64,000 nt of DNA, taken from the NCBI GenBank assembly GCA_009746045.1, contig RPFO01002073.1:1-64000 (forward strand). Reading direction: 5' to 3'. Positions 4,472 through 63,501 of the stretch are shown here, piece by piece (the first letter of the stretch is position 1; each line of letters starts with the position of its first letter). Origin of the DNA: Mesostigma viride (lineage: Eukaryota > Streptophyta > Mesostigmatophyceae > Mesostigmatales > Mesostigmataceae). The position numbers were made by a program, and so were the translations under genes. A model generated the notes under the pieces. The model was given only the letters and a program-made list of their open reading frames with translations. It searched no databases and was not told the DNA's origin.

Positions 4472-4682
4472 CCTGGTCGGTAGCCTGGCTATAGCGCATA
4501 CCGGTAGCCTCTCTGTAGCATAGATGATCGACCTGGACTTGGACATTTTGGCGCTAAACAGAAAATGGCTGGGCTACGACCTGGCTATAGACACGTGCCT
4601 GCCAGCCCTACCGGCCGGCTACCAGGCGCACACAGCCAGAGACGCGCGCGTCATTTAAATTTCGACACGGCTATAGACAGCA

Positions 4683-5291
4683 ATGGGCTCTGCACAGGCG
4701 CACACACGACAGACATCGCGGACGCACACACGACAGACATCGCGGACGCTAGTTTCCATGGAGGACATTCCCCTGCAATTATGTGGGGGTTGTCCTGAGT
4801 TGACAGGAGCTGCCCATAAGTGCACATGCGGTGTGTGGATGCACGGGATTTGTGGCATCGGCCAGGGAGAAGAGGGGTATGGCCAAGTGAGGATCTGCAC
4901 GAAATGCCAGCAGGGGGGCGAGACTAAAAAACAGGACAAGCCACAGCCGGCGGGCCCCACTAAAGCCGCCTGTGATGAGGATAAAGACGATGACAAAGAG
5001 GAAGCTGAGGACATGGCCCTCCTAGCCGGCGAGCAGGCCATACTAGAAGGGGATGGCCTGGACGATGTAGACGCCTACTTGTTAGGCAAGACGGGCAGAA
5101 CCGGCAAGCACGTGATGGATGCCACGGGCAAAAAGCAGGTCGGTAAGCGGACGGAATACTGTATGACATGCTCTTGTTCTTCCCTTCCTCCTTGGGGATG
5201 CAAATCATCTTATCGCTGCCCTGTTTTGAGAAATCTGTATGAGCATTGCTACAGCGCCTTTGGGATGCAAATCATCTTATTGCTGCCCTGA
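4683..5291 (+). CDS. Small protein with a PHD/RING-like zinc finger
   Basis: An ORF of 202 aa; a better start may be the ATG at 4758 (MEDIPLQLCGGC), since the residues before it come from a short direct repeat (GACAGACATCGCGGACGCAC, twice). It contains a compact cysteine/histidine cluster: CGGC, then KCTCGVWMHGIC, then CTKC, with spacing like a PHD or other treble-clef finger. A basic/acidic linker follows, with an acidic patch (DEDKDDDKEEAEDMA). The last ~45 codons run into a tandem repeat, so the true 3' end, possibly spliced, is uncertain. Such fingers occur in chromatin readers and in transposon proteins. The neighbouring foldback favours the latter, as inference only. Confidence 0.45.
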   Translation: MGSAQAHTRQTSRTHTRQTSRTLVSMEDIPLQLCGGCPELTGAAHKCTCGVWMHGICGIGQGEEGYGQVRICTKCQQGGETKKQDKPQPAGPTKAACDEDKDDDKEEAEDMALLAGEQAILEGDGLDDVDAYLLGKTGRTGKHVMDATGKKQVGKRTEYCMTCSCSSLPPWGCKSSYRCPVLRNLYEHCYSAFGMQIILLLP

Positions 5292-38168: not shown

Positions 38169-41100
38169 CTAATCCTCTGGCTCGTAGTCACTGTCATCCT
38201 CACTTGCTTCCGAGGGCTTTGCCTTTTCCGTCCACTCATACTCTCCCTGCTCCTCCCCCTCCTCGCCCTCGTCCCCTTCCTCCCCTTCCTCCGATGCCTC
38301 GCTCAGAAAGCCGTCCTTAACTGACCCGCCCCCAAACAAGGGTAGTGATTGGCCGCGTATCAACCCTTGGGATGCGTCCGCACGGACACCGCTGCCGGCC
38401 GGCTGTGACCATCTCGTCGCGGGCACGCTGGTCGCGCCCGCTGCGTTGCCACCTCCGCTAGACCCACCCCCGTGGCTATGTTTACGGCCATGCCCCTTGC
38501 GGCGACCACCCCCATGCACGCTCGCCTTGCTGCCGGCACCGCTCTTCTCCACAAAGCCAGCCCTGGCCCATTCGGGTGGATTGGCAATCAGCTCTGACGG
38601 CACATCATCCATGCTGGCACACGGCTGGCCCTCGGTCTTCCACGTCTTGGGACAGCGACTAGCATACGGGCCCCCTGGGCAAGACACCTCGCGCGGGCAC
38701 TTGTGGAAACACGTGTAGTTGAGATGGGCGTGGCAAAAGCCCGGCAGTGCCATGGGCGTGGGCAAATTGTCGCCGCACGCGCACATGCTGCCAGCGGCGC
38801 AACTGTGGCAGGGCACGCCGCTCTCTGCCTGGCACCCTGGCACGCATGGATGCGCGAGCGTGATGAGCCCCGCGCGCGCCAGCACAAGGATGTTGTGGTA
38901 CTCGGCGTTGTAGTCGTGGATGCTCTCGCGACCAGACAGGGGCACCTCGGCGTTGAAGTAGTGGTGGGGGATGGAGTGGCCCTCGCGGAAGTGGAAGCCA
39001 TAGATGTCCAGGTGTGCGCACAGCTGGCAACCGGCACATGAGGCGAGCGGCAACACCATGGCACACGTGGATTGGTTATCGCGTGTTGGTTATCATGGGA
39101 GGGTTCACTATGGGAGGGTCACTATGGGAGGGGTAGCAGAGGGCAGCATGCACCAAGCAACCACGATGAGGACGGGGGAGGGGAAAGGGCAGTGGCGAGA
39201 GGCTTTGTGCAGCCAAAGGTCCCCTTTCACAATACCTCTACCCAACGCCACAGCGGTAGTGCGGAACACGCCCTTCCTGTGTCCAGTACAAGCTACACAT
39301 CCTTTCTGCGGCCTGTCCATTCTGCCCATATTGTCCAACACCCGCATCAACAGGGGCACCCCCAGGCTAGAATCTTCCTTGCCAGCTTGCCTCATTCATA
39401 CCACAGCCACCAAGAAGGAAGCGCGACCGCTGGCGCTATGAAACCAGCGCCCACATCGTCGCGCCCAACAGCGCGGCGCGTGGGCAGGCTGTCTCACTTA
39501 AGGCAGGGAGTCAACAGCTTTGCATGGCAACCAAAGTGCAACGCAAACGGGTTGAATTCCAAACTCTTGAGCTGACATCAACGTGCACCAACCCACAGCT
39601 GTAGACCAGGGCGTGTGCACGCAACCCCCTTACCTGCAGGCCGAAGAAGATGGCGAAGTACCCCCCCGTGGGCAGCACCGGTATGTTGGAGGAGACATAG
39701 CCCGTGAAGTCGGTGTCAAACACAAACAGCTTGTCGTGCCTCCGCGCGTTGCGCTCCTGCAGGTAGCGGAACAGCCCGTTCTTGCTCTGCATCTGCTGCA
39801 CGCGCACCTCGCCCCCCTCCACGAACCCGATGTGCTGCGTGTTTACAAAGCGGAAGGTGGTCCGCGTGCCCACGTGGTCGCCGTAGTGCGCCGCCACATC
39901 GCGCGCTGCCTCCACGCCGTTCTTGGCGCGCGGGCGGGTAGGCGCGCTGGACACCAACCGGGAGAGCATGAACCGGGTGATCAACACAGAACATTTGGGA
40001 GAAGATCAACCAGGTGATGGCGAGGTGGCCATGGGGAGCACGTACGGCAAGACGGCGACGTGGTCACAATGTCAGCACTTGGTGACGTGGAGATCTTGTG
40101 ACGAGAAGATGGGGGGGATGACGTGGTGGGTTGGGCGGCTCATGCCAGCATGTCAGCTACGGTAGCCATAGAAGGCACACCATGCCATGGACACAACCCA
40201 GTGGGCGCACCTGTGGAAGCCGATCAAGCCACTGGCCACTGTCACCCACATGTGGAAGCGAAGGATGATGCCACCCATCTGTTTACCGTATGATCATGCC
40301 ACAAACCTGCCACATCAAACCACGGTCCCTAGCGCACGTTGTTGAAGGGAATGGCCACGCATCCCACCCGTGGAAGCCTATCACAACACGGCTAGCTGCC
40401 ACCTACCTGTTGAAGCGAATGACCATGCCTCCTGGCTTTACCTGTTGAAGCGTATGACCATGTCGTGCGCGTCAATGGCAGGCCCGTCCGCATAAATCAT
40501 GGAGAGGCCCGAACTGCCCACGATCGCGCAGGTGTTGAACACGGCACCCGCGAGCGGGTCCTGTTCCGGCATCAGCGCCAGCATCATGGGCGTGATCACT
40601 GTCTTCAACTCGTCGGCCGCGGCGCGCGACTTGTTGAGTGCGCGCAGCATCTTCTTTTCTGCGTCCACGGCCTCCAGCAGTGGCGCAAACAGCGTGTGCG
40701 TCTTACCGTGCGACTGGCGGGGAGAGGCGGTGGAGAGGGGGTGGAGAAGAGGCAGCCGGGGAAAAGCCCCACAAACACAGCGCCAGGATCATGCCGCCAG
40801 GGGGTGGAACAGGGTGGCAGCACAGGTAGTGGGGAAGAAGCACGAGTCACGATCCACGCTGCACCGGTGGGGGGAGCAAACAGCGGCTACAATTTCTGCT
40901 TATATCCTAGACCCGAGTTGCATCAACATCCATCCCACATGTGTGCCACCGCCATGTCACGCCGATTGCTTTGTCACGCGTGCATCACCATGACCCCCTG
41001 ACGTCGTTGTGGGACCATCCAGCAAGCTTCCCCCCCTTCCTCTCCCTTCTCTCCCCTGCGTGCCGCCCCACCCCCCACGCACACACGTGCCGCACCTGCT

Positions 41101-44100
41101 TGCCCGCCTTTGGGTTTGTGGTGAACGCTATCCCCTTGTTCTGCCGCACGTGGCGCTGGCTGAGCAGAAGCTGCCCCTCAAACGCCATGCGCAGAACGCC
41201 GCCGCCGTCCGTGGGCAGGTCGGCCCGCGGCTGCTTGCAGTCAGGGCCAGTGTAGCTGCCAGCACACGTGGGGCATGGGGCAACAAGCGGGGCAGGTGTC
41301 AGTTGCGGGAAACAGGACTGGATGAGAGAAGGATTGGGAGAGAAGGATGAGAGAAGGGCTCGGGACGCCATCCAGGGCTCCGCATGTCGCCTGCCTGCCC
41401 GTGGTGGCGAGGCCGACGGAAAAGTATGCTGGCGGTGGCCACGAGGGGTGGAACTAGATATACAGTCATCACTGCGTCAAGTTGCGTTCTTAAAGGTTGC
41501 GCTATCGCGTTAAGTTGCGATGCCAAAGTTTGGGCAGCGACCGCAACTTAAGAATTGGTGCCATCGCAACTTAACGCGGTAATGACTCAATTTGTAGGTG
41601 TCAGGCTATTTTTGGCCCACAGGAGGCCACTTTTTGCCAAGTCCAGACCTGCAATGTGGCTTTAGGCAGCAAAATACGCAAGGTCCACTGGCGCGCAGAC
41701 TTCCCCGCCTCCTGGCAATTCAGTTAGTGACAAGCGCGAATGCAACCTTACAATTCCAATTAATTTGCAGCCTGCGGACTGCGGTACATACGAATCCAAG
41801 AGCTTGCGGCAGGCCACCCGTACTTGAGACAACTTGCCGGAAATTACCACCATCATGCCCAAAGCACACATGACGGCTCATTCATATGTGGTATAAAACG
41901 CAGGCACTGACGCACTGTGTGGCTGGCTGGCTGCGCCCGGCGGGCGGCGTGTATTGCAGCCCACCTTTCCCACAAAATACCTGGTCTGGAAAATGGACTT
42001 TGGGCGGCTTTGATGCTGCAGCTGGATCGGGCATGACAAGAGCTGTCGAATGCCGTATAGAAGTCTGTCAGAGGAGGGAGTGGGATGCTAGCCTCATTCT
42101 ACCGTTGAGTTGCATAGCCGCGTTAAGTTGCGTAACCGCGTTAAGTTGCGATGCCGAATTTTTCAGGCGTCGATCTCAACTCAACGCGGTAATGACTGTA
42201 GGTTTACCGTAGAACACCCTGGGTGTACCCCAGGGTGTGTGCGAACCCCACAAGCCCCGTTGCAGGTACAGCCCCGGCCAGCCACCAAACCTCTTTCGCC
42301 CCTCGTGCCACTCAAAAGGACTTGCATGCTAAATCCATTTGTTGACATGAAAGCACAGCCCGGTTCCAACAGCTTTTCCTGTTGAACAACAACAACACCG
42401 ACTTTCCATGTAAGTGCCAGTTGCTGCAGGCTGACCAAACCATGGGCAACCACCCTTCCTTCTGCCCCTTCCTTCTGCCCCTTCCTTCTGCCCCTTCCTT
42501 CTGCCCCTTCCAGCTCCCCAGGCATCACCCCCTTAACCCCTCCCAACCGAGCAACACCCTGTCCTTCCCCCCACCTCCCCCAACTTACGCCAGCACACAG
42601 ACGCATCGGCCCCCCCGGCCGCAGTACCCGTGCGGCCCGCACTGCAGCACGCGCACGCTCCTGCTGCCGTCCACCGTCACCTCCTGAAAGCACACAGGCT
42701 CCGACTTGGCGACACGGCCCACACGGCCACCCTCCAGGAGCTCTTCCAACGGCAGCACGCTGGGGCCCCCGCTGGACCCCCACCCTGTGCCCGCTGGGCC
42801 AGCCCCAACACCTGGCCCCCCTACCCTAGCGAGTTGACTGCTGACCAAGCTCTGCACTGCACCACTACTGCTGGTCAGTGCACCCCCACCGGCAGCCACC
42901 CCGACATCGCCCCCCCCCGCCCCCCCCATGCTGGCTTGCTGCCCCACGCCCGTGATTGCGTTGACGAATGCCATAGCGTCGGTGCCCGCGCCCCCCTCGG
43001 TGCCCGCCACCCCTTGCGCGAGCAGGAAATCCACCAAGTCCAGCCCCTGCGCTGCCATGATCTGTTCCATGCTCGCGTTCTTGGGCAGCGGCGTGTGCAC
43101 GTAGCCTGGGCGCGCCCACGCGGGCAAACCTTCTTCGCTGAGGAACATGGGGGGGATGTCGGCCAGCGTTGCGCACGCAAGGCCGAGCGCGTGGGGGTTG
43201 AAGCTCTTCGGGCAGCGGCTAGCAAAAGGGCCGCCCACGCACAGCACGCCGCGCGGGCAGCGGAAGAAGCAGGTGTAGTTGTGGCGCGCGTGGCAGAAGC
43301 CCGGCAGCGCCATGGGCGTGGGCAAATTGTCGCCGCACGCGCACATGCTGCCCGCGGCGCAGTTATGGCAGCGGACGCCGCTCTCGGCCTCGCAGCCGGG
43401 CACGCATGGGTGCACAAGTGTGACGAGGCCTTCCAACGCCAGCGCCTGGGGGCAGGGGAGCGGGAATGATCCATGCGTGCAGAAGGTGGGGGATGATTCA
43501 TGCGTGCAGAAGGTGGGGGATGATCAATGCGTGCAGAAGGTGGGGGATGATTCATGCGTGCAGAAGGTGGGGGATGATTCATGCGTGCAGAAGGTGGGGA
43601 ATGATCCATGCGTGCAGAAGGTGGGGGATGATCCATGCGTGCAGAAGGTGGGGGATGATCCATGCGTGCAGAAGGTGGGGGATGATTCATGCGTGCAGAA
43701 GGTGGGGGATGATTCATGCGTGCAGAAGGTGGGGGATGATCCATGCGTGCAGAAGGTGGGGGATGATTCATGCGTGCAGAAGGTGGGGGATGATCCATGC
43801 GTGCAGAAGGTGGGGGATGATTCATGCGTGCAGAAGGTGGGGGATGATCCATGCGTGCAGAAGGTGGGGGATGATTCGTGCGTGCAGAAGGTGGGGAATG
43901 ATCCATGCGTGCAGAAGGTGGGGGATGATTCATGCGTGCAGAAGGTGGGGGATGATCCATGCGTGCAGAAGGTGGGGGATGATTCGTGCGTGCAGAAGGT
44001 GGGGGATGATTCATGCGTGCAGAAGGTGGGGGATGATCCATGCGTGCAGAAGGTGGGGGATGATCCATGCGTGCAGAAGGTGGGGGATGATCCATGCGTG

Positions 44101-47100
44101 CAGAAGGTGGGGGATGATTCATGCGTGCAGAAGGTGGGGGATGATTCATGCGTGCAGAAGGTGGGGGATGATCCATGCGTGCAGAAGGTGGGGGATGATT
44201 CATGCGTGCAGAAGGTGGGGGATGATCCATGCGTGCAGAAGGTGGGGGATGATTCATGCGTGCAGAAGGTGGGGGATGATCCATGCGTGCAGAAGGTGGG
44301 GGATGATTCATGCGTGCAGAAGGTGGGGGATGATTCGTGCGTGCAGAAGGTGGGGGATGATTCATGCGTGCAGAAGGTGGGGGATGATCCATGCGTGCAG
44401 AAGGTGGGGGATGATTCATGCGTGCAGAAGGTGGGGGATGATTCATGCGTGCAGAAGGTGGGGGATGATCCATGCGTGCAGAAGGTGGGGGATGATTCGT
44501 GCGTGCAGAAGGTGGGGGATGATTCATGCGTGCAGAAGGTGGGGGATGATTCATGCGTGCAGAAGGTGGGGGATGATCCATGCGTGCAGAAGGTGGGGAT
44601 GATTCATGCGTGCAGAAGGTGGGGGATGATTCATGCGTGCAGAAGGTGGGGGATGATCCATGCGTGCAGAAGGTGGGGGATGATTCATGCGTGCAGAAGG
44701 TGGGGGATGATTCGTGCGTGCAGAAGGTGGGGGATGATTCGTGCGTGCAGAAGGTGGGGGATGATCCATGCGTGCAGAAGGTGGGGGATGATCCATGCGT
44801 GCAGAAGGTGGGGGATGATTCGTGCGTGCAGAAGGTGGGGGATGATTCATGCGTGCAGAAGGTGGGGGATGATTCATGCGTGCAGAAGGTGGGGGATGAT
44901 TCATGCGTGCAGAAGGTGGGGGATGATTCGTGCGTGCAGAAGGTGGGGGATGATCCATGCGTGCAGAAGGTGGGGGATGATCCATGCGTGCAGAAGGTGG
45001 GGGATGATTCGTGCGTGCAGAAGGTGGGGGATGATTCATGCGTGCAGAAGGTGGGGGATGATTCATGCGTGCAGAAGGTGGGGGATGATTCATGCGTGCA
45101 GAAGGTGGGGGATGATTCGTGCGTGCAGAAGGTGGGGGATGATTCGTGCGTGCAGAAGGTGGGGGATGATTCATGCGTGCAGAAGGTGGGGGATGATTCA
45201 TGCGTGCAGAAGGTGGGGGATGAGAAGGTGGGGGATGATCCATGCGTGCAGAAGGTGGGGGATGATTCATGCGTGCAGAAGGTGGGGGATGATTCGTGCG
45301 TGCAGAAGGTGGGGGATGATTCATGCGTGCAGAAGGTGGGGGATGATTCATGCGTGCAGAAGGTGGGGGATGATTCGTGCGTGCAGAAGGTGGGGGATGA
45401 TTCGTGCGTGCAGAAGGTGGGGGATGATCCATGCGTGCAGAAGGTGGGGGATGATTCGTGCGTGCAGAAGGTGGGGGATGATCCATGCGTGCAGAAGGTG
45501 GGGGATGATTCATGCGTGCAGAAGGTGGGGGATGATTCATGCGTGCAGAAGGTGGGGGATGATTCGTGCGTGCAGAAGGTGGGGGATGATCCATGCGTGC
45601 AGAAGGTGGGGGATGATTCGTGCGTGCAGAAGGTGGGGGATGATTCATGCGTGCAGAAGGTGGGGGATGATTCATGCGTGCAGAAGGTGGGGGATGAGAA
45701 GGTGGGGGATGATTCATGCGTGCAGAAGGTGGGGGATGATTCGTGCGTGCAGAAGGTGGGGGATGATTCATGCGTGCAGAAGGTGGGGGATGATTCATGC
45801 GTGCAGAAGGTGGGGGATGATTCATGCGTGCAGAAGGTGGGGGATGATCCATGCGTGCAGAAGGTGGGGGATGATCCATGCGTGCAGAAGGTGGGGGATG
45901 ATCCATGCGTGCAGAAGGTGGGGGATGATTCATGCGTGCAGAAGGTGGGGGATGATCCATGCGTGCAGAAGGTGGGGGATGATTCATGCGTGCAGAAGGT
46001 GGGGGATGATTCATGCGTGCAGAAGGTGGGGGATGATTCATGCGTGCAGAAGGTGGGGGATGATCCATGCGTGCAGAAGGTGGGGGATGATTCATGCGTG
46101 CAGAAGGTGGGGGATGATTCATGCGTGCAGAAGGTGGGGGATGATTCATGCGTGCAGAAGGTGGGGGATGATCCATGCGTGCAGAAGGTGGGGGATGATC
46201 CATGCGTGCAGAAGGTGGGGGATGATCCATGCGTGCAGAAGGTGGGGGATGATTCATGCGTGCAGAAGGTGGGGGATGATCCATGCGTGCAGAAGGTGGG
46301 GGATGATCATGCGTGCAGAAGGTGGGGGATGATTCATGCGTGCAGAAGGTGGGGGATGATTCATGCGTGCAGAAGGTGGGGGATGATTCATGCGTGCAGA
46401 AGGTGGGGGATGATTCATGCGTGCAGAAGGTGGGGGATGATTCATGCGTGCAGAAGGTGGGGGATGATTCATGCGTGCAGAAGGTGGGGGATGATTCATG
46501 CGTGCAGAAGGTGGGGGATGATCCATGCGTGCAGAAGGTGGGGGATGATTCATGCGTGCAGAAGGTGGGGGATGATTCATGCGTGCAGAAGGTGGGGGAT
46601 GATTCATGCGTGCAGAAGGTGGGGGATGATTCATGCGTGCAGAAGGTGGGGGATGATTCATGCGTGCAGAAGGTGGGGGATGATTCATGCGTGCAGAAGG
46701 TGGGGGATGATTCATGCGTGCAGAAGGTGGGGGATGATTCATGCGTGCAGAAGGTGGGGGATGATGATTCATGCGTGCAGAAGGTGGGGGATGATTCATG
46801 CGTGCAGAAGGTGGGGGATGATTCATGCGTGCAGAAGGTGGGGGATGATTCATGCGTGCAGAAGGTGGGGGATGATCCATGCGTGCAGAAGGTGGGGGAT
46901 GATTCATGCGTGCAGAAGGTGGGGGATGATTCATGCGTGCAGAAGGTGGGGGATGATCCATGCGTGCAGAAGGTGGGGGATGATCCATGCGTGCAGAAGG
47001 TGGGGGATGATTCATGCGTGCAGAAGGTGGGGGATGATTCATGCGTGCAGAAGGTGGGGGATGATTCATGCGTGCAGAAGGTGGGGGATGATTCATGCGT

Positions 47101-50100
47101 GCAGAAGGTGGGGGATGATTCATGCGTGCAGAAGGTGGGGGATGATCCATGCGTGCAGAAGGTGGGGGATGATCCATGCGTGCAGAAGGTGGGGGATGAT
47201 CCATGCGTGCAGAAGGTGGGGGATGATTCATGCGTGCAGAAGGTGGGGGATGATTCATGCGTGCAGAAGGTGGGGGATGATCCATGCGTGCAGAAGGTGG
47301 GGGATGATTCATGCGTGCAGAAGGTGGGGGATGATTCATGCGTGCAGAAGGTGGGGGATGATTCATGCGTGCAGAAGGTGGGGGATGATTCATGCGTGCA
47401 GAAGGTGGGGGATGATTCATGCGTGCAGAAGGTGGGGGATGATCCATGCGTGCAGAAGGTGGGGGATGATTCATGCGTGCAGAAGGTGGGGGATGATTCA
47501 TGCGTGCAGAAGGTGGGGGATGATTCATGCGTGCAGAAGGTGGGGGATGATTCATGCGTGCAGAAGGTGGGGGATGAGAAGGTGGGGGATGATTCATGCG
47601 TGCAGAAGGTGGGGGATGATTCATGCGTGCAGAAGGTGGGGGATGATTCATGCGTGCAGAAGGTGGGGGATGATTCATGCGTGCAGAAGGTGGGGGATGA
47701 TTCATGCGTGCAGAAGGTGGGGGATGATTCATGCGTGCAGAAGGTGGGGGATGATCCATGCGTGCAGAAGGTGGGGGATGATCCATGCGTGCAGAAGGTG
47801 GGGGATGATTCATGCGTGCAGAAGGTGGGGGATGATCCATGCGTGCAGAAGGTGGGGGATGATCATGCGTGCAGAAGGTGGGGGATGATTCATGCGTGCA
47901 GAAGGTGGGGGATGATCCATGCGTGCAGAAGGTGGGGGATGATTCATGCGTGCAGAAGGTGGGGGATGATTCATGCGTGCAGAAGGTGGGGGATGATTCA
48001 TGCGTGCAGAAGGTGGGGGATGATTCATGCGTGCAGAAGGTGGGGGATGATTCATGCGTGCAGAAGGTGGGGGATGATTCATGCGTGCAGAAGGTGGGGG
48101 ATGATTCATGCGTGCAGAAGGTGGGGGATGATTCATGCGTGCAGAAGGTGGGGGATGATTCATGCGTGCAGAAGGTGGGGGATGATTCATGCGTGCAGAA
48201 GGTGGGGGATGATCCATGCGTGCAGAAGGTGGGGGATGATTCATGCGTGCAGAAGGTGGGGGATGATTCATGCGTGCAGAAGGTGGGGGATGATCCATGC
48301 GTGCAGAAGGTGGGGGATGATTCATGCGTGCAGAAGGTGGGGGATGATTCATGCGTGCAGAAGGTGGGGGATGATTCATGCGTGCAGAAGGTGGGGGATG
48401 ATTCATGCGTGCAGAAGGTGGGGGATGATCCATGCGTGCAGAAGGTGGGGGATGATTCATGCGTGCAGAAGGTGGGGGATGATCCATGCGTGCAGAAGGT
48501 GGGGGATGATTCATGCGTGCAGAAGGTGGGGGATGATTCATGCGTGCAGAAGGTGGGGGATGATCCATGCGTGCAGAAGGTGGGGGATGATTCATGCGTG
48601 CAGAAGGTGGGGGATGATTCATGCGTGCAGAAGGTGGGGGATGATTCATGCGTGCAGAAGGTGGGGGATGATTCATGCGTGCAGAAGGTGGGGGATGATT
48701 CATGCGTGCAGAAGGTGGGGGATGATTCATGCGTGCAGAAGGTGGGGGATGATTCATGCGTGCAGAAGGTGGGGGATGATTCATGCGTGCAGAAGGTGGG
48801 GGATGATTCATGCGTGCAGAAGGTGGGGGATGATTCATGCGTGCAGAAGGTGGGGGATGATTCATGCGTGCAGAAGGTGGGGGATGATTCATGCGTGCAG
48901 AAGGTGGGGGATGATCCATGCGTGCAGAAGGTGGGGGATGATTCATGCGTGCAGAAGGTGGGGGATGATTCATGCGTGCAGAAGGTGGGGGATGATTCAT
49001 GCGTGCAGAAGGTGGGGGATGATTCATGCGTGCAGAAGGTGGGGGATGATTCATGCGTGCAGAAGGTGGGGGATGATTCATGCGTGCAGAAGGTGGGGGA
49101 TGAGAGAAGGTGGGGGATGATTCATGCGTGCAGAAGGTGGGGGATGATCCATGCGTGCAGAAGGTGGGGGATGATTCATGCGTGCAGAAGGTGGGGGATG
49201 ATCCATGCGTGCAGAAGGTGGGGGATGATCCATGCGTGCAGAAGGTGGGGGATGATTCATGCGTGCAGAAGGTGGGGGATGATTCATGCGTGCAGAAGGT
49301 GGGGGATGATTCATGCGTGCAGAAGGTGGGGGATGATTCATGCGTGCAGAAGGTGGGGGATGATTCATGCGTGCAGAAGGTGGGGGATGATTCATGCGTG
49401 CAGAAGGTGGGGGATGATTCATGCGTGCAGAAGGTGGGGGATGATTCATGCGTGCAGAAGGTGGGGGATGATTCATGCGTGCAGAAGGTGGGGGATGATT
49501 CATGCGTGCAGAAGGTGGGGGATGATTCATGCGTGCAGAAGGTGGGGGATGATCCATGCGTGCAGAAGGTGGGGGATGATTCATGCGTGCAGAAGGTGGG
49601 GGATGATTCATGCGTGCAGAAGGTGGGGGATGATTCATGCGTGCAGAAGGTGGGGGATGATTCATGCGTGCAGAAGGTGGGGGATGATCCATGCGTGCAG
49701 AAGGTGGGGGATGATTCATGCGTGCAGAAGGTGGGGGATGATTCATGCGTGCAGAAGGTGGGGGATGATTCATGCGTGCAGAAGGTGGGGGATGATTCAT
49801 GCGTGCAGAAGGTGGGGGATGATTCATGCGTGCAGAAGGTGGGGGATGAGAAGGTGGGGGATGATTCATGCGTGCAGAAGGTGGGGGATGATCCATGCGT
49901 GCAGAAGGTGGGGGATGATTCATGCGTGCAGAAGGTGGGGGATGATTCATGCGTGCAGAAGGTGGGGGATGATTCATGCGTGCAGAAGGTGGGGGATGAT
50001 CATGCGTGCAGAAGGTGGGGGATGATTCATGCGTGCAGAAGGTGGGGGATGATTCATGCGTGCAGAAGGTGGGGGATGATTCATGCGTGCAGAAGGTGGG

Positions 50101-53100: not shown

Positions 53101-56100
53101 TCATGCGTGCAGAAGGTGGGGGATGATTCATGCGTGCAGAAGGTGGGGGATGATCATGCGTGCAGAAGGTGGGGGATGATTCATGCGTGCAGAAGGTGGG
53201 GGATGATTCATGCGTGCAGAAGGTGGGGGATGATTCATGCGTGCAGAAGGTGGGGGATGATTCATGCGTGCAGAAGGTGGGGGATGATTCATGCGTGCAG
53301 AAGGTGGGGGATGATTCATGCGTGCAGAAGGTGGGGGATGATTCATGCGTGCAGAAGGTGGGGGATGATTCATGCGTGCAGAAGGTGGGGGATGATTCAT
53401 GCGTGCAGAAGGTGGGGGATGATTCATGCGTGCAGAAGGTGGGGGATGATTCATGCGTGCAGAAGGTGGGGGATGATTCATGCGTGCAGAAGGTGGGGGA
53501 TGATTCATGCGTGCAGAAGGTGGGGGATGATTCATGCGTGCAGAAGGTGGGGGATGATTCATGCGTGCAGAAGGTGGGGGATGATTCATGCGTGCAGAAG
53601 GTGGGGGATGATTCATGCGTGCAGAAGGTGGGGGATGATTCATGCGTGCAGAAGGTGGGGGATGATTCATGCGTGCAGAAGGTGGGGGATGATTCATGCG
53701 TGCAGAAGGTGGGGGATGATTCATGCGTGCAGAAGGTGGGGGATGATTCATGCGTGCAGAAGGTGGGGGATGATTCATGCGTGCAGAAGGTGGGGGATGA
53801 TTCATGCGTGCAGAAGGTGGGGGATGATTCATGCGTGCAGAAGGTGGGGGATGATTCATGCGTGCAGAAGGTGGGGGATGATTCATGCGTGCAGAAGGTG
53901 GGGGATGATTCATGCGTGCAGAAGGTGGGGGATGATTCATGCGTGCAGAAGGTGGGGGATGATTCATGCGTGCAGAAGGTGGGGGATGATCATGCGTGCA
54001 GAAGGTGGGGGATGATTCATGCGTGCAGAAGGTGGGGGATGATTCATGCGTGCAGAAGGTGGGGGATGAGAAGGTGGGGGATGATTCATGCGTGCAGAAG
54101 GTGGGGGATGATTCATGCGTGCAGAAGGTGGGGGATGATTCATGCGTGCAGAAGGTGGGGGATGATTCATGCGTGCAGAAGGTGGGGGATGATTCATGCG
54201 TGCAGAAGGTGGGGGATGATTCATGCGTGCAGAAGGTGGGGGATGATCATGCGTGCAGAAGGTGGGGGATGATTCATGCGTGCAGAAGGTGGGGGATGAT
54301 TCATGCGTGCAGAAGGTGGGGGATGATTCATGCGTGCAGAAGGTGGGGGATGATTCATGCGTGCAGAAGGTGGGGGATGATTCATGCGTGCAGAAGGTGG
54401 GGGATGATTCATGCGTGCAGAAGGTGGGGGATGATTCATGCGTGCAGAAGGTGGGGGATGATTCATGCGTGCAGAAGGTGGGGGATGATTCATGCGTGCA
54501 GAAGGTGGGGGATGATTCATGCGTGCAGAAGGTGGGGGATGATTCATGCGTGCAGAAGGTGGGGGATGATCATGCGTGCAGAAGGTGGGGGATGATTCAT
54601 GCGTGCAGAAGGTGGGGGATGATTCATGCGTGCAGAAGGTGGGGGATGATTCATGCGTGCAGAAGGTGGGGGATGATTCATGCGTGCAGAAGGTGGGGGA
54701 TGATTCATGCGTGCAGAAGGTGGGGGATGATTCATGCGTGCAGAAGGTGGGGGATGATCATGCGTGCAGAAGGTGGGGGATGATTCATGCGTGCAGAAGG
54801 TGGGGGATGATTCATGCGTGCAGAAGGTGGGGGATGATTCATGCGTGCAGAAGGTGGGGGATGATTCATGCGTGCAGAAGGTGGGGGATGATTCATGCGT
54901 GCAGAAGGTGGGGGATGATTCATGCGTGCAGAAGGTGGGGGATGATTCATGCGTGCAGAAGGTGGGGGATGATTCATGCGTGCAGAAGGTGGGGGATGAT
55001 TCATGCGTGCAGAAGGTGGGGGATGATTCATGCGTGCAGAAGGTGGGGGATGATTCATGCGTGCAGAAGGTGGGGGATGATTCATGCGTGCAGAAGGTGG
55101 GGGATGATTCATGCGTGCAGAAGGTGGGGGATGATTCATGCGTGCAGAAGGTGGGGGATGATTCATGCGTGCAGAAGGTGGGGGATGATTCATGCGTGCA
55201 GAAGGTGGGGGATGATTCATGCGTGCAGAAGGTGGGGGATGATTCATGCGTGCAGAAGGTGGGGGATGATTCATGCGTGCAGAAGGTGGGGGATGATTCA
55301 TGCGTGCAGAAGGTGGGGGATGATTCATGCGTGCAGAAGGTGGGGGATGATTCATGCGTGCAGAAGGTGGGGGATGATTCATGCGTGCAGAAGGTGGGGG
55401 ATGATTCATGCGTGCAGAAGGTGGGGGATGATTCATGCGTGCAGAAGGTGGGGGATGATTCATGCGTGCAGAAGGTGGGGGATGATTCATGCGTGCAGAA
55501 GGTGGGGGATGATTCATGCGTGCAGAAGGTGGGGGATGATTCATGCGTGCAGAAGGTGGGGGATGATGATCATGCGTGCAGAAGGTGGGGGATGATTCAT
55601 GCGTGCAGAAGGTGGGGGATGATCATGCGTGCAGAAGGTGGGGGATGATTCATGCGTGCAGAAGGTGGGGGATGATTCATGCGTGCAGAAGGTGGGGGAT
55701 GATTCATGCGTGCAGAAGGTGGGGGATGATTCATGCGTGCAGAAGGTGGGGGATGATTCATGCGTGCAGAAGGTGGGGGATGATTCATGCGTGCAGAAGG
55801 TGGGGGATGATTCATGCGTGCAGAAGGTGGGGGATGATTCATGCGTGCAGAAGGTGGGGGATGATCCATGCGTGCAGAAGGTGGGGGATGATTCATGCGT
55901 GCAGAAGGTGGGGGATGATTCATGCGTGCAGAAGGTGGGGGATGATTCATGCGTGCAGAAGGTGGGGGATGATTCATGCGTGCAGAAGGTGGGGGATGAT
56001 TCATGCGTGCAGAAGGTGGGGGATGATTCATGCGTGCAGAAGGTGGGGGATGATTCATGCGTGCAGAAGGTGGGGGATGATTCATGCGTGCAGAAGGTGG

Positions 56101-59100
56101 GGGATGATTCATGCGTGCAGAAGGTGGGGGATGATTCATGCGTGCAGAAGGTGGGGGATGATCATGCGTGCAGAAGGTGGGGGATGATTCATGCGTGCAG
56201 AAGGTGGGGGATGATCATGCGTGCAGAAGGTGGGGGATGATTCATGCGTGCAGAAGGTGGGGGATGATTCATGCGTGCAGAAGGTGGGGGATGATTCATG
56301 CGTGCAGAAGGTGGGGGATGATTCATGCGTGCAGAAGGTGGGGGATGATTCATGCGTGCAGAAGGTGGGGGATGATTCATGCGTGCAGAAGGTGGGGGAT
56401 GATTCATGCGTGCAGAAGGTGGGGGATGATTCATGCGTGCAGAAGGTGGGGGATGATTCATGCGTGCAGAAGGTGGGGGATGATTCATGCGTGCAGAAGG
56501 TGGGGGATGATTCATGCGTGCAGAAGGTGGGGGATGATTCATGCGTGCAGAAGGTGGGGGATGATTCATGCGTGCAGAAGGTGGGGGATGATTCATGCGT
56601 GCAGAAGGTGGGGGATGATTCATGCGTGCAGAAGGTGGGGGATGATTCATGCGTGCAGAAGGTGGGGGATGATTCATGCGTGCAGAAGGTGGGGGATGAT
56701 TCATGCGTGCAGAAGGTGGGGGATGATTCATGCGTGCAGAAGGTGGGGGATGATTCATGCGTGCAGAAGGTGGGGGATGATTCATGCGTGCAGAAGGTGG
56801 GGGATGATTCATGCGTGCAGAAGGTGGGGGATGATTCATGCGTGCAGAAGGTGGGGGATGATCCATGCGTGCAGAAGGTGGGGGATGATTCATGCGTGCA
56901 GAAGGTGGGGGATGATTCATGCGTGCAGAAGGTGGGGGATGATTCATGCGTGCAGAAGGTGGGGGATGATTCATGCGTGCAGAAGGTGGGGGATGATTCA
57001 TGCGTGCAGAAGGTGGGGGATGATTCATGCGTGCAGAAGGTGGGGGATGATCATGCGTGCAGAAGGTGGGGGATGATTCATGCGTGCAGAAGGTGGGGGA
57101 TGATTGCGTGCAGAAGGTGGGGGATGATTCATGCGTGCAGAAGGTGGGGGATGATTCATGCGTGCAGAAGGTGGGGGATGATTCATGCGTGCAGAAGGTG
57201 GGGGATGATTCATGCGTGCAGAAGGTGGGGGATGATTCATGCGTGCAGAAGGTGGGGGATGATTCATGCGTGCAGAAGGTGGGGGATGATTCATGCGTGC
57301 AGAAGGTGGGGGATGATTCATGCGTGCAGAAGGTGGGGGATGATTCATGCGTGCAGAAGGTGGGGGATGATTCATGCGTGCAGAAGGTGGGGGATGATTC
57401 ATGCGTGCAGAAGGTGGGGGATGATTCATGCGTGCAGAAGGTGGGGGATGATCCATGCGTGCAGAAGGTGGGGGATGATTCATGCGTGCAGAAGGTGGGG
57501 GATGATTCATGCGTGCAGAAGGTGGGGGATGATTCATGCGTGCAGAAGGTGGGGGATGATTCATGCGTGCAGAAGGTGGGGGATGATTCATGCGTGCAGA
57601 AGGTGGGGGATGATTCATGCGTGCAGAAGGTGGGGGATGATTCATGCGTGCAGAAGGTGGGGGATGATCCATGCGTGCAGAAGGTGGGGGATGATTCATG
57701 CGTGCAGAAGGTGGGGGATGATTCATGCGTGCAGAAGGTGGGGGATGATTCATGCGTGCAGAAGGTGGGGGATGATTCATGCGTGCAGAAGGTGGGGGAT
57801 GATTCATGCGTGCAGAAGGTGGGGGATGATTCATGCGTGCAGAAGGTGGGGGATGATTCATGCGTGCAGAAGGTGGGGGATGATTCATGCGTGCAGAAGG
57901 TGGGGGATGATTCATGCGTGCAGAAGGTGGGGGATGATTCATGCGTGCAGAAGGTGGGGGATGATCCATGCGTGCAGAAGGTGGGGGATGATTCATGCGT
58001 GCAGAAGGTGGGGGATGATTCATGCGTGCAGAAGGTGGGGGATGATTCATGCGTGCAGAAGGTGGGGGATGATTCATGCGTGCAGAAGGTGGGGGATGAT
58101 CCATGCGTGCAGAAGGTGGGGGATGATCCATGCGTGCAGAAGGTGGGGGATGATTCATGCGTGCAGAAGGTGGGGGATGATTCATGCGTGCAGAAGGTGG
58201 GGGATGATTCATGCGTGCAGAAGGTGGGGGATGATTCATGCGTGCAGAAGGTGGGGGATGATCATGCGTGCAGAAGGTGGGGGATGATCCATGCGTGCAG
58301 AAGGTGGGGGATGATTCATGCGTGCAGAAGGTGGGGGATGAGAAGGTGGGGGATGATCCATGCGTGCAGAAGGTGGGGGATGATTCATGCGTGCAGAAGG
58401 TGGGGAATGATCCATGCGTGCAGAAGGTGGGGGATGATTCATGCGTGCAGAAGGTGGGGGATGATTCATGCGTGCAGAAGGTGGGGGATGATTCGTGCGT
58501 GCAGAAGGTGGGGGATGATTCATGCGTGCAGAAGGTGGGGGATGATCCATGCGTGTAAATGGGGGGAGGCTCTGTGTCAGGGACGGCTTGATCCTGTTGT
58601 GCTCCATCATCTGGCACTCGGTGGCATTAAATGAGCACAAGACACGGGTGTACCTCGATGCTGCGGTGCTGGGCATCATGGTCGTGGATGGGAGCCCCCG
58701 CTACACATTGACGTATAGAGCAGGTGTTCCTAACAACAGGCATTCGATCTCACCATCTTGCTGCGGTACTGGGCATCATGGTCGTGGATGGGAGCCCCCA
58801 CTACACATTGAAGTATAGAGCAGGTGTTCCTCACAACAGGCGTTCCATCTCACCATCTTGCTGCGGTACTCGGCGTCGTAATCGTGGATGGGAGCCCTTC
58901 AAGTCTATGTTCATAATAGCAGGCGTTCACTCCTCACCTTGATGCTGCGGTACTCGGCGTCGTAGTCATGGATGGACGCCCCCCCCTCGAGCGGCACCTC
59001 CTCGTTGAAGTAGTGGTGTGGGATCGCATGACCCGCCCGCCAGTGGAAGCCGTACACGTCCAGGTGCGCGCAGCGGTGCAGCGCCAGCATGATGGCAAAG

Positions 59101-62100
59101 TAGCCCCCCGTGGGCAGCACATGCAGGTTGGACGACACATACCCGGTGAAGTCGGTGTCGAACGCATAGAAGCGGGCGTCCGAGGGTGACTCGAGCCGAT
59201 GCTGGCAAACGCAAGCACGTGCAAGGCGGCACGAGGCATATGGGGCGGCAAACACAAGCACGTGCAAGGCGGCACGAGGCATATGGGGCGGCAAACGCAA
59301 GCACGTGCAAGGCGGCACGAGGCATATGGGGCGGCAAACACAAGCACGTGCAAGGCGGCACGAGGCATATGGGGCGGCAAACACAAGCACGTGCAAGGCG
59401 GCACGAGGCATATGGGGCGGCAAACACAAGCACGTGCAAGGCAGCACGAGGCATATGGGGCGGCAAACACAAGCACATGCAAGGCGGCACGAGGCATATG
59501 GGGCGGCAAACACAAGCACGTGCAAGGCGGCACGAGGCATATGGGGCGGCAAACACAAGCACGTGCACGGCCGCAAGAGGCATTGGCAGCGGGGCAGCGC
59601 GGCGGGGCAATGAGGAGCGGAGACATGGTGGACAAAAGGGGGAAGAACAGGTTTTCCCGTCCGTTGTAGGGTACTGGGTGTACCGGCAGGGAGAATGAAC
59701 GGTGGGGTAAGAAACAATGCACACACAAGAACAACTAAAAAAAAGTTAAGCACACACAAGAACAAGATAAGAGACAATGAGCACACACGAAAACCAAATG
59801 TTGCCCTAGCACACACGAAAACCAAATGTTGCCCCCAGGAGACATTGGCATGATATGACCCCTGGAAAGGGCAGGGACTGGGAAAAAATTTCGGGCAGAT
59901 GCCACCCAATGACCATTTCCACCACCACCACGGCGGTTCGCTAATGACACCACGCATGACAATAGCCCAAGGGACGTCCAGCCATGGCGCTGCCACCTCA
60001 CCTGCCCATCGGCGCATGAGATGTGCGGTACGACCGGAGGTCTGCCACATGCCGCCATCATGCCGGCGCCGCCACCACATGCCCTGTGCATACCTCAGTG
60101 GTCGAGTGCAATACGGGGCAGTCCCTATTGTGGCAGCGATGAACTAAGGCCGACCTTTGCGGCCCAGTGTACCACTCCCATAAATGCTGAGGGGTCACCC
60201 AGGCATCAGGCATGTATTGGCAGTACTGGTAGCTGCTTGGAGCCGCAAGGCCATCCAACGCCGCGCGACCTGAGGGCGGCCCGCATGCAGGGTGGTGGCC
60301 AAACCGTGCCAACATGGCATGGGGCGGCCCTTGCCCTATCTATTGGGCCCCCTATCCTTCCCCCATCGCTGCGCACCTGGAAGTAGCTGTACAGCCCGTT
60401 GCATCCCTCTTGCCCCCTACCCTTCCCCCATCGCTGCGCACCTGGAAGTAGCTGTACAGCCCGTTGCATCCCTCTTGCCCCCTACCTTTCCCCCATCGCT
60501 GCGCATCTGGAAGTAGCTGTACAGCCCGTTGCATCCCTCTTGCCCCCTACCCTTCTCCCATCGCTGCGCACCTGGAAGTAGCTGTACAGCCCGTTGCGCG
60601 ACTGCAGCTGCTGGATGCGGATCTCCTTGCCCTCCAGAAAGTTAACGTTCTGTGTGTTGACCAGCCGGAAGGTGGTGCGGCGGCCCACGTGTGCGCCAAA
60701 GTCAATGGTGACAGGTGGCGAGCCGTCGCTGCTCTTCACCACGCCCACGCGGGTGGGCGCGCTGCCCAGGGGGTGGCACAGGAGAGTACCGCCATGCAAG
60801 TAGAAAGGGCAGGTGCGTTGAGGCGAGCGGGGCAGGGTAGGCGCAACTTGCGACGCAGATTGCTCATTCGCCACAACCCGTGCCATGGATACCCAAAATG
60901 GAAGAGTAAGAACATAAGACAGGGATGTGGAACACAAGCGCCTGCCTTAAAAAAAAAACTGCTGTCCTCACCCGCGCCTGTTTACCCGCCCCTGTTTACG
61001 CATTTTCAGGACACCGGGGCAGCTGTCACCCACCTTTTGAACACGAGACATGGTGTCATGCGTACCGGTTGAAGCGGCCCCCAACAAACCAGCTGTCACC
61101 CACCTTTTGAACACGAGACATGGTGTCATGCCTACCGGTTGAAGCGGCCCCCAACAAACCAGCTGTCACCCACCTTTTGAACATGAGACATGGTGTCATG
61201 CCTACCGGTTGAAGCGGCCCCCAACAAACCAGCTGCCACCCACCTTTTGAACACGAGACATGGTGTCATGCCTACCGGTTGAAGCGGCCCCAACAAACCA
61301 GCTGTCACCCACCTTTTGAACACGAGACATGGTGTCATGCCTACCGGTTGAAGCGGCCCCCAACAAACCAGAAGACGGCGCGTGCACATGTCGGACCAGA
61401 AGACGGCGCGTGCACATGTCGGACCAGAAGACGGCGCGTGCACATGTTGGACCAGAAGACGGCGCGTGCACATGGACCAGAAGACGGCGCGTGCACATGT
61501 CGGACCAGAAGACGGCGCGTGCACATGTCGGACCAGACGACGGCGCGTGCACATGTCGGACCAGAAGACGGCGCGTGCACATGTTGGACCAGAAGACGGC
61601 GCGTGCACATGGACCAGAAGACGGCGCGTGCACATGTCGGACCAGAAGACGGCGCGTGCACATGTCGGACCAGACGACGGCGCGTGCACATGTCGGACCA
61701 GAAGACGGCGCGTGCACATGTTGGACCAGAAGACGGCGCGTGCACATGGACCAGAAGACGGCGCGTGCACATGTCGGACCAGAAGACGGCGCGTGCACAT
61801 GGACCAGAAGACGGCGCGTGCACATGTCGGACCAGAAGACGGCGCGTGCACATGTCGGACCAGAAGACGGCGCGTGCACATGTCGGACCAGACGACGGCG
61901 CGTGCACATGTCGGACCAGAAGACGGCGCGTGCACATGTTGGACCAGAAGACGGCGCGTGCACATGGACCAGAAGACGGCGCGTGCACATGTCGGACCAG
62001 AAGACGGCGCGTGCACATGTCGGACCAGACGACGGCGCGTGCACATGTCGGACCAGAAGACGGCGCGTGCACATGTCGGACCAGAAGACGGCGCGTGCAC

Positions 62101-63501
62101 ACGTCGGACCAGAAGACGGCGTGCACCTGTTGGATCCAGAGACGGCATCCCCTGCCCACACCACCATCCGCGGCCCCTGCCTGTTGAACCGGAACAGCGC
62201 GTCGTGGCCCCTACCTGTTGAACCGGAACAGCGCGTCGTGGCCCCTACCTGTTGAACCGGAACACCGCGTCGTGTGCGTCGATGGCCTCCCCCTCACGGT
62301 AGACGAGGGAAATCCCGCTGCTGCCCACGATGGCGCACGAGTTGTACACGCGGCCGCGCAGGAGGTCCTCTTCGGGCAGCATGGCCCACAGGGAGGCGGT
62401 GATGACCGCCTTCATCTCGTGCGCGCGCATGGTGCCAAAGTGGGCAGTCACGCTGCGGTCCACCGAGAGGGACAGCGAGAGGGGCGCAAACACGGTGTGC
62501 GTCTTGCGGCGGCGGGCGGACGCGGCCACCGCGGATGCCTTTGGGTTGGTGGTGAAGTGGATGCCACCGCGCGCTAGCACGTGCTTCTTGTTGAGCACAA
62601 AGCTGCCATCAAACGCTGAGTGCAGACCGCTGGGTAGCGTGCGCGGCATCTTGCAATCAGGGCCCGAGTAGCTACCAAAGGGGAGAATGGGGAAGGTTGA
62701 AGGGGGAAGGGGGAAGGGGAAAGGGGGGAGTGAGGCAAGGGCAGGGCCGGGCATATAAGTGCAGGCGTGGTGGTGGGGACAGGTGTGCATGAACAGATGG
62801 TGGGTCCATCAATCTGGTGCGAAGAAAGGAAGGAGAAGTGCTGATATGGCACACGTTGAATTGAAGGTCACCCTTGTGCTACCCAGTGAACATGGTTCAA
62901 ACAAGGCAACGCTATGCACTCGAGACATGGGTGGGCCTGTTATGGCAATATATATAGCAGCATTAATTCATTACGGAGCACGGATGACCAAGTTTAGGTT
63001 TACTGTATAACCGGTATATGCGCGCGTAGTAAGAAGCACAAGGCGGGACAGAGCATTTACAGTTACGTACGCGAGGACGCAATGGCATCTTCCTTGATGG
63101 CAGAAACCGTTGGGAAGGCAATCCGTAGGCCTCGCAAGCACTCTGCCGTCGATCTTCCTGGCAAGATAGCAAGTGCCGTCACTCTTCCATGGGCGCCCAT
63201 CCTCGCAGACGCCGTCAGGGCTGCACGTTAGGGGGGGACGAGCTGGATTACCACTCGGCACACGGCTTTCCAAGGCTGGGGACCCGGTAAAATCATCCTC
63301 TTCAGTGTCTCTCAAGTCGTCTACTGCAGGGGTGACAGCTCCTTCGTCACCAGAAGAATGGTAAAAATGGCCCCAAAGACTTTGAACATCAGCTCTCGAG
63401 TGCTTTTGCAGATGAATCCCGACCTTGGCCGTGCCTGTGAAGATGGAGTACGCCGTGAAACATATGGCCGCAAGCAGGATTGTCCAAGCTACTTTGTTCA
63501 T
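38169..63501 (-). CDS. Two-domain GT29 (sialyltransferase-like) type II membrane protein, 1254 aa
   Basis: Exons (minus): 63501-63071, 62671-62249, 60761-60572, 59201-58938, 43445-42589, 41255-41096, 40713-40442, 39946-39634, 39023-38169; all GT-AG, phases close. A signal-anchor at residues ~5-21 (WTILLAAICFTAYSIF) suggests Golgi type II topology. The layout repeats twice: EGF-like (C128-C150; C705-C728), GT29 domain, then a Cys-rich module (HPCVPGC..., from 448 and 1028). Both GT29 domains have sialylmotif L (CAIVGSSG...RFNSAPTR, C256 and C837), VG(R/T)RTTFR(L/F)VNTQ, motif S (LPTGGYFAI...LD(V/I)YGF, PTGG 378 and 958), motif III HHYFN (410, 990) and motif VS H-x4-E (426-431, 1006-1011). So both look catalytically complete. 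An acidic tail ends the protein. Exon 5 alone joins Cys-rich module 1 to EGF 2, directly supporting one polypeptide. Donor and acceptor substrates are unknown; plant and algal GT29 proteins need not use sialic acid. Confidence 0.9.
40205..40450 (-). repeat. Duplicated exon 7 end plus donor, with older degenerate copies
   Basis: CCTGTTGAAGCG(A/T)ATGACC starts at 40406 and 40441, the latter being the true exon end. Both have an intact sense-strand AACAG|GTA donor. Looser copies (GTTGAAGGGAATGGCCA, GTGGAAGCGAAGGATG) extend left to about 40205. Confidence 0.78.
41461..42200. mobile_element. Non-autonomous Tc1/mariner-like element in a GT29 intron
   Basis: The left end reads TA-CAGTCATCACTGCGTCAAG. 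The right end, reverse-complemented, reads TA-CAGTCATTACCGCGTTGAG. The TA dinucleotide flanks both sides, as expected for the Tc1/mariner target duplication. Subterminal GTTAAGTTGCGATGCC repeats occur at both ends, and the left end itself folds (41463-41588). About 740 bp, with no transposase ORF. Confidence 0.75.
42465..42515. repeat. 13-bp tandem repeat
   Basis: CCCCTTCCTTCTG repeated about four times in the polypyrimidine-rich start of the intron downstream of exon 5. Confidence 0.8.
43463..58557. repeat. Giant 27-bp tandem array (about 15.1 kb, ~550 units) in one intron
   Basis: Consensus unit on plus: GATGATTCATGCGTGCAG + AAGGTGGGG; read in frame it would be DDSCVQKVG. It fills almost the whole intron between exons 4 and 5 of the GT29 gene (donor 58937, acceptor 43446). 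Variants: C for T in GATGATCCATGCG, common at both ends and rare at 51.4-56.8 kb; GATGATTCGTGCG, almost confined to 43.8-45.7 kb plus one unit at 58.49 kb; short GATGAGAAGGTGGGG units at about 45223, 45694, 47574, 49848, 50534, 51224, 54067 and 58339; and 26-bp units lacking one T or C. There are no spacers and no unique sequence inside. Two frames on each strand stay open across most units, so the long ORFs are artefacts of period 27. Confidence 0.97.
58651..58938 (-). repeat. Four copies of GT29 exon 4 end
   Basis: CTGCGGT(A/G)CT(C/G)GGC(G/A)TC starts at 58661, 58761, 58861 and 58945. The last is the true exon 4 end (DYDAEYRSIK). The three intronic copies have lost the donor. They sit between the donor and the 27-bp array. 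Confidence 0.88.
59205..59575. repeat. 43-bp tandem repeat abutting exon 4 acceptor (about 8.6 units)
   Basis: Units contain GCAAGGCGGCACGAGGCATA, TGGGGCGGCAAACACAAGCA and CGT. The last unit merges with the acceptor (sense TGCTTGCGTTTGCCAG). Confidence 0.9.
60374..60572 (-). repeat. Four copies of GT29 exon 3 end plus donor (65-bp period)
   Basis: CA(C/T)CTGGAAGTAGCTGTAC starts at 60374, 60439, 60504 and 60569. The last is the real exon 3 end (LYSYFQ). Copies at 60374 and 60439 keep a perfect TTCCAG|GTGCGC donor. The copy at 60504 has ATGCGC instead. Confidence 0.9.
61022..61371 (-). repeat. 70-bp tandem repeat carrying donor-like sites
   Basis: TACCGGTTGAAGCGGCCCC recurs at 61063, 61133, 61203, 61273 and 61342. 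On the sense strand each reads CGCTTCAACCG|GTAGGCATG, which resembles the exon 2 end CGGTTCAACAG|GTAGGGGC. Confidence 0.85.
61372..62140 (-). repeat. 28-bp minisatellite in GT29 intron 2 (about 28 units)
   Basis: Units GACCAGAAGACGGCGCGTGC + ACATGTCG or the shorter ACATG. The sense strand reads ACGCGCCGTCTTCTGGTCCA + ACATG, alignable to the exon 2 end ACGCGGTGTTCCGGTTCA + ACAG. 28-bp units make cycling spurious ORFs on both strands. Confidence 0.85.
62175..62282 (-). repeat. Three copies of GT29 exon 2 end plus donor (34-bp period)
   Basis: CTGTTGAACCGGAACA(G/C)CGC starts at 62181, 62215 and 62249. The last is the true exon 2 end. The copy at 62215 keeps AACAG|GTAGGGG; the one at 62181 has a GC donor. 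Confidence 0.9.

Follow-up and report, generated by a model that had tools for sequence, protein, structure and literature searches.

We describe here a gene of Mesostigma viride whose predicted product carries two complete GT29 catalytic domains in tandem. It lies in what we call the window, the whole stretch of 64,000 nucleotides (contig RPFO01002073.1) that was analysed. The reading that we prefer, with a probability of roughly 0.5, is that of one chain with two active units, for which a 2-keto sugar acid is the leading guess as donor; it is built on comparison of sequences, and its parts differ in strength, as detailed below. One gene would then encode one membrane protein of type II topology, belonging to the secretory pathway and carrying both GT29 catalytic units on the same chain. 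If both units indeed act, we are aware of no earlier example of a GT29 chain with two active sites, and this one would be the first known to us. Throughout, the term sialyltransferase-like is a statement of GT29 family membership only.

Gene model and domain order

Joining nine exons on the minus strand between 63501 and 38169 (Table 1) yields 3765 nt, corresponding to 1254 amino acids plus a TAG stop codon; the introns are of the GT...AG type and their phases are consistent. The joined product matches the EukProt protein jgi/Mesvir1/11214/Mv03063-RA.1 (1254 aa; P0001 in our set) with 100% identity at 100% coverage. We take the label Mesvir1 to stand for Mesostigma viride, a streptophyte green alga, unicellular and covered by scales, that stands close to the base of the land-plant lineage. 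Given the identity with Mv03063-RA.1, the gene model had already been annotated in public data, and the nine-exon product of 1254 residues given in the preliminary description proves exact in its coordinates as well as its length. The order of domains is confirmed for the predicted protein: a membrane anchor, followed twice by an EGF-like module, a GT29 domain and a Cys-rich domain, all in one reading frame after splicing.

Table 1. Features of the double GT29 gene, in order of transcription (aa, residues of the predicted protein)
Feature	Position	Strand	Content
Exon 1	63071..63501	-	aa 1-143: start codon, signal-anchor segment (aa 4-22), stem, most of EGF-like domain 1
Exon 2	62249..62671	-	aa 144-284: end of EGF 1, pre-catalytic region, sialylmotif L of half 1
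Exon 3	60572..60761	-	aa 285-348: middle portion of the half 1 GT29 domain
Exon 4	58938..59201	-	aa 349-436: sialylmotifs S, III and VS of half 1
Intron 4	43446..58937	-	15,492 bp
Exon 5, first part	43032..43445	-	aa 437-574: Cys-rich C-terminal domain and end of half 1
Exon 5, middle	42699..43031	-	aa 575-685: Gly-rich linker between the halves; without stop and without strongly hydrophobic segment
Exon 5, last part	42589..42698	-	to aa 721: most of the half 2 EGF-like domain
Exon 6	41096..41255	-	aa 722-775: end of EGF 2, pre-catalytic region of half 2
Exon 7	40442..40713	-	aa 776-865: sialylmotif L of half 2
Exon 8	39634..39946	-	aa 866-970: half 2 GT29 domain, sialylmotif S as far as its cysteine
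Exon 9	38169..39023	-	motif S cysteine, sialylmotifs III and VS of half 2, Cys-rich domain 2, acidic C-terminal tail, TAG
AATAAA	38158..38163	-	directly after the stop codon; possible poly(A) signal; sole AATAAA of the strand within 38100-63600

Several introns contain repeated sequence. Most of intron 4 is taken up by a 15.1-kb minisatellite (43462-58555) with a unit of 27 bp, present in about 564 copies with 95% matches. The sequence at the 3' splice junction of exon 2, donor site included, recurs in two copies in the following intron (62194-62228), and that of exon 3 recurs likewise in three copies in the intron behind it (60390-60520), in each case with at most one mismatch. A 43-bp repeat (59204-59583) ends at the acceptor of exon 4, and a 100-bp repeat (58659-58897) is found after this exon. 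The junction copies and the repeats flanking exons 2-4 possibly reflect growth of introns from the exon edge.

Two GT29 units in one protein

The preliminary description had claimed two complete GT29 domains and had proposed to compare both halves with a GT29 profile. With hmmscan each half is well recognised by PF00777 (90.5 bits for half 1, 83.7 bits for half 2 and 160.2 bits for the whole protein, at a curated cut-off of 23), and sialylmotifs L, S, III and VS are intact in both, so that this claim holds. The halves themselves align with 253 of 455 residues identical (56%; BLASTP, 503 bits).

In an alignment with pig ST3Gal-I (PDB 2wnb/2wml) the four sialylmotifs correspond residue by residue to those of either Mesostigma half, including the histidines of motifs III and VS. 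Out of 15 motif positions two differ from the pig enzyme, and these are the same two in both halves: N is replaced by S in VGNSG (VGSSG in Mesostigma), as it is in 8 of the 16 relatives used for comparison, and T by G in motif S (PSTG in pig, PTGG in Mesostigma), as in all 16. Unlike the Mesostigma protein, pig ST3Gal-I has one domain, and its donor is sialic acid. The alignment also places a cysteine in motif L and another in motif S of both halves, the pair that is described as disulphide-bonded in opisthokont GT29 enzymes (PMC5811610). The modules in front of the catalytic domains are named EGF-like with some reserve, as they score 19.2 and 23.0 bits against PF23106 (23.8 bits for the whole protein), all under the cut-off of 24.3; the family profile also matches reelin (E 3.1e-11).

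Proteins of Pseudoscourfieldia marina (P0002), Chloropicon primus (P0009) and Tetraselmis (P0004) share the domain order, the motifs and the Cys-rich C-terminus of each half, and that of Pseudoscourfieldia shares the anchor sequence as well; all three have one GT29 unit per chain, whereas the Mesostigma protein has two. The same pattern is seen in the complete set of homologues, which comprises 34 proteins including P0001 (about 8000 candidates were scored per search) and was surveyed with a profile of 24 aligned rows (both halves, 21 relatives and a piece of the pig enzyme). Two full GT29 domains are found in P0001 only. Each of the 33 other proteins has at most one, in line with the earlier statement that a single catalytic domain per chain is the norm, and second profile matches in these proteins are fragments of the same single domain. 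The search for the double architecture among relatives, also proposed earlier, thus returned P0001 alone; since it covered 34 proteins and some 8000 candidates per search, double GT29 proteins elsewhere could be missed. A second GT29 protein with the label Mesvir1 (P0026, Mv19169-RA) is of the single-unit type.

Within the window, tblastn with both halves (E 1e-3) gave matches only where they overlap the nine exons, that is, no further copy of the gene. Among the open-licence PMC papers listed in our searches, none dealt with a double GT29 protein; one paper mentions neither GT29 nor sialyltransferase in its text (PMC3797821), and in another the passage on GT29 concerns gene loss in Zygnema (PMC11096116). 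Among viral contigs, 2 out of 25 pattern matches are distant GT29 relatives. The IMG/VR viral contig L001 (63,908 bases) contains a GT29 relative at 2001-2558, with 28% identity over the best segment.

One polypeptide or two genes

That the two halves form a single polypeptide is, in our estimate, very probable. We weighed this against the possibility that two neighbouring single-domain genes have been merged by mistake, the first ending in or after exon 5 and the second beginning before EGF 2. Exon 5 was reported as one uninterrupted frame of 857 nt that joins the end of half 1, via the Gly-rich linker, to most of the half 2 EGF-like domain, and it is exactly that; its openness is weak evidence when taken alone, because the stretch is GC-rich and one antisense frame is open too, even though the other two frames of the same strand contain 3 and 4 stops. 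Nonetheless, a single open frame that closes half 1 and leads into EGF 2 argues against a boundary between two genes at this place.

The position of the membrane anchor bears on the same question. The most hydrophobic segment of the protein is aa 4-22 (hydropathy 1.87, with a runner-up of 1.48), which predicts an N-terminal anchor with type II topology on the side of half 1 only, and this N-terminus resembles that of the single-unit Pseudoscourfieldia protein (59% over 34 aa, E 4e-8). Exon 5 contains 7 in-frame Met codons, and no membrane anchor for half 2 was found after any of them (best following segment 1.33). A half 2 starting in this exon would thus have no way into the secretory pathway, even though disulphides are normally required in EGF and Cys-rich parts. 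In addition, a version of the Mesostigma protein with one half is absent among the matches listed in our homologue searches.

Other features would suit two merged genes. Neither unit lacks a domain, and a very long intron separates exon 4 from exon 5. The link across these 15,492 bp is supported, however, by half 2 and the single-unit relatives, in which the sequence is contiguous at the point where exon 4 meets exon 5 in half 1. The linker does not have the third-position GC typical of the domains (0.74, against 0.84-0.88 for most domain segments; the C-terminal tail has 0.66 and the N-terminal stem 0.49). The word TGTAA, an algal poly(A) signal, occurs once in intron 5 (at 41752), where about 1.05 occurrences are expected by chance. 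Finally, the public annotation and our manual join could share a single error. Taken together we regard two merged genes as improbable.

That no AATAAA lies between the halves was initially listed in support of one gene; this point was dropped, as it says little when just 0.10 occurrences are expected by chance. According to the Mesostigma genome paper, 9,198 out of 9,300 predicted coding sequences have transcript support (PMC7027972), and Mv03063-RA may belong to that set. For Mesostigma, 10.5 million PacBio cDNA reads have been reported as well (PMC6947507).

Conservation of each half

Returning to the single chain, we measured the conservation of its halves over 90 alignment columns whose residue is shared by 90% or more of 16 relatives (drawn from 21 aligned; P0016, P0017, P0019, P0020 and P0022 were omitted). 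Half 1 keeps 87 of these 90 columns (0.967) and half 2 keeps 88, while the leave-one-out range of the 16 relatives extends from 0.865 to 1.0. The measure is able to reveal decay, because the Closterium rows P0019 and P0020, which are without the motif III and VS histidines, score 53 and 54 out of 90. The columns missed by half 1 are a change of H to N in the EGF-like domain, another of H to N in NTQH (giving NTQN), and a change of V to L; half 2 shares the latter and has one of N to S ahead of the catalytic domain. The change from NTQH to NTQN, which is specific to half 1, could alter specificity. Compared over 450 codons (NG86), the halves show a dN of 0.39 against a dS of 0.89, which suggests constraint (the dS value is uncertain because third positions are GC-rich).

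We consider it rather likely that both units are active, as far as can be judged from these patterns. Bifunctionality is plausible, and processivity is unsupported. It might be argued instead that one polypeptide contains one catalytic half and that the other half, being degenerate, binds or positions the acceptor. Half 1 would be the candidate for this: it has asparagine in place of a histidine that the family conserves, its branch is longer (0.65 against 0.46), and loss of catalytic residues is known in GT29, as the Closterium rows without both motif histidines illustrate. Nonetheless, with its 0.967 half 1 falls within the range of the relatives, and it retains every tested motif residue that the family retains. 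An arrangement with one working half thus appears doubtful.

The Closterium proteins P0019 and P0020 (scored) and P0022 (seen in the alignment) all lack the histidines of motifs III and VS and may be non-catalytic GT29 proteins. By eye, motif VS of P0026 is also without histidine, and this protein likewise reads NTQN.

Origin of the double unit

In a tree of 17 rows the two halves are sisters (93/91). They are also sisters when the Cys-rich part is removed (79/72) and when this part is used alone (15 rows; 84/83). In the tree of 23 rows the sister grouping is unresolved, and no tree attains the program's mark for firm support. The rows taken out between the larger and the smaller tree were P0017, P0019, P0020, P0022, P0023 and P0024; no row named Chlorokybus or land plant is contained in the trees. 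A grouping of half 2 with P0008, P0002 and P0014, which was named after the first tree had been seen, was rejected (p-AU 0.013).

Intron positions add to this picture. Each half has four introns, two of which coincide in place as well as phase (alignment columns 55 and 233, phase 2), while the remaining ones lie at columns 323 and 420 in half 1 and at columns 119 and 369 in half 2. Such a mixture of shared and differing positions agrees with an old tandem duplication and later turnover of introns, and the double unit probably originated in this way, the copies being fused afterwards. A recent duplication or an artefact of assembly is rejected, because 44% of the aligned residues and two out of four intron positions per half differ. 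The ancestor would have been a single gene encoding anchor, EGF-like, GT29 and Cys-rich domains. After its tandem duplication, fusion would have involved loss of the stop codon of copy 1 and of the anchor exon of copy 2, with the stem of copy 2 turned into the present linker.

A run of 44 nt is identical between the halves in the Cys-rich domain (aa 468 and 1048; exons 5 and 9), and the proportion of same-codon use in the Cys-rich part reaches 0.77 and 0.81 in two local windows. We do not claim gene conversion between the halves, since over its full length the Cys-rich part is no different from the remaining sequence (10,000 permutations, 0.52).

Probable function

We know of no enzyme that has been identified as building the 2-keto-sugar-acid glycans of algal scales. 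A tandem GT29 gene in a scale-bearing streptophyte alga provides a concrete test gene, and it could link the chemistry of scales to the Kdo chemistry of pectin. Judging from its family and from the chemistry of scales, the protein is likely a Golgi transferase of 2-keto sugar acids (Kdo or Dha) serving scale formation; that the donor is a 2-keto sugar acid we consider an even bet.

The argument starts from Arabidopsis RCKT1/MGP2, likewise a GT29 protein with an N-terminal membrane anchor, for which CMP-Kdo is the proposed donor; its description, the basis of this comparison, mentions no second catalytic domain (PMC11288761). According to this source RCKT1 is required for Kdo in RG-II, with mutant evidence for a role as RG-II Kdo transferase; the assignment of RG-II Kdo addition to a GT29 protein dates only from 2024. 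Pointing away from such a donor, another Arabidopsis member is named GALT29A, a galactosyltransferase by its name (PMC11288761). Genes for the synthesis and transport of Kdo are reported in M. viride (PMC6947507), and the basket scales of Mesostigma are said to contain 2-keto sugar acids (PMC10762512, which cites Domozych 1991). The theca of Tetraselmis is described as having the same acids as Mesostigma scales (PMC10762512), and a single-unit relative is present in Tetraselmis (label Tetstr1).

A true sialyltransferase with two units and CMP-sialic acid as donor would be the literal expectation, as GT29 is named for that activity and the authors of the Chloropicon primus study raise the possibility of sialylated scales (PMC6731263). 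Against this, plant GT29 proteins are reported to have no discernible sialyltransferase activity (PMC11288761), a survey of GT29 describes the sialylation pathway as partly retained or entirely lost, the latter as in Streptophyta (PMC5811610), and descriptions of Mesostigma scales refer to 2-keto sugar acids, Kdo among them (PMC6947507, PMC10762512). A sialic acid donor therefore seems highly improbable.

If the donor is a 2-keto sugar acid, each unit would move it in CMP-activated form (Kdo, Dha or a relative) to scale glycans in the Golgi. GT29 enzymes use an inverting mechanism in which the motif VS histidine acts as base, and each of the two units would be expected to do the same. The tethered pair may couple two additions on one acceptor. 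More specifically, the units might add two different ulosonic acids, or one ulosonic acid in two linkages, successively on the same scale glycan, which is an unlikely refinement at present. Were it true, a two-step GT29 enzyme with dual specificity would be the eukaryotic counterpart, separately evolved, of the bacterial KpsC.

KpsC carries two Kdo transferase modules per chain that produce alternating Kdo linkages and serves as a model for the Mesostigma protein, in that a design with two sites in a single chain can evidently work (PMC10148158). The parallel is one of analogy only and implies no kinship: KpsC is a retaining enzyme, and a Pfam scan (E up to 1) found no KpsC-type transferase domain in the Mesostigma protein, PF00777 being the sole transferase domain.

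Two active units could also have the same specificity, in which case the fusion would merely raise the dose or fix the stoichiometry. This possibility overlaps with our preferred reading of two active units in one chain. In its favour are the 56% identity of the halves and their sister position in the reduced trees. Increase in copy number also occurs in relatives, since 59 sialyltransferase genes are reported from Chloropicon primus (PMC6731263). That 44% of the aligned residues differ, among them one at a conserved column where the change is specific to one half, points the other way, and we consider equal specificity rather unlikely.

Other features of the window

Rfam at gathering thresholds gave 0 matches. 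Among 10 of 85 filtered open frames that were scanned, one at 1158-2966 (minus strand) contains DUF7869 and one at 4677-5288 (plus strand) a zinc finger of the SCAND3 type; both are possibly remains of mobile elements. A tandem repeat with a unit of 38 bp is located at 34726-35603 (23 copies, 99% matches).
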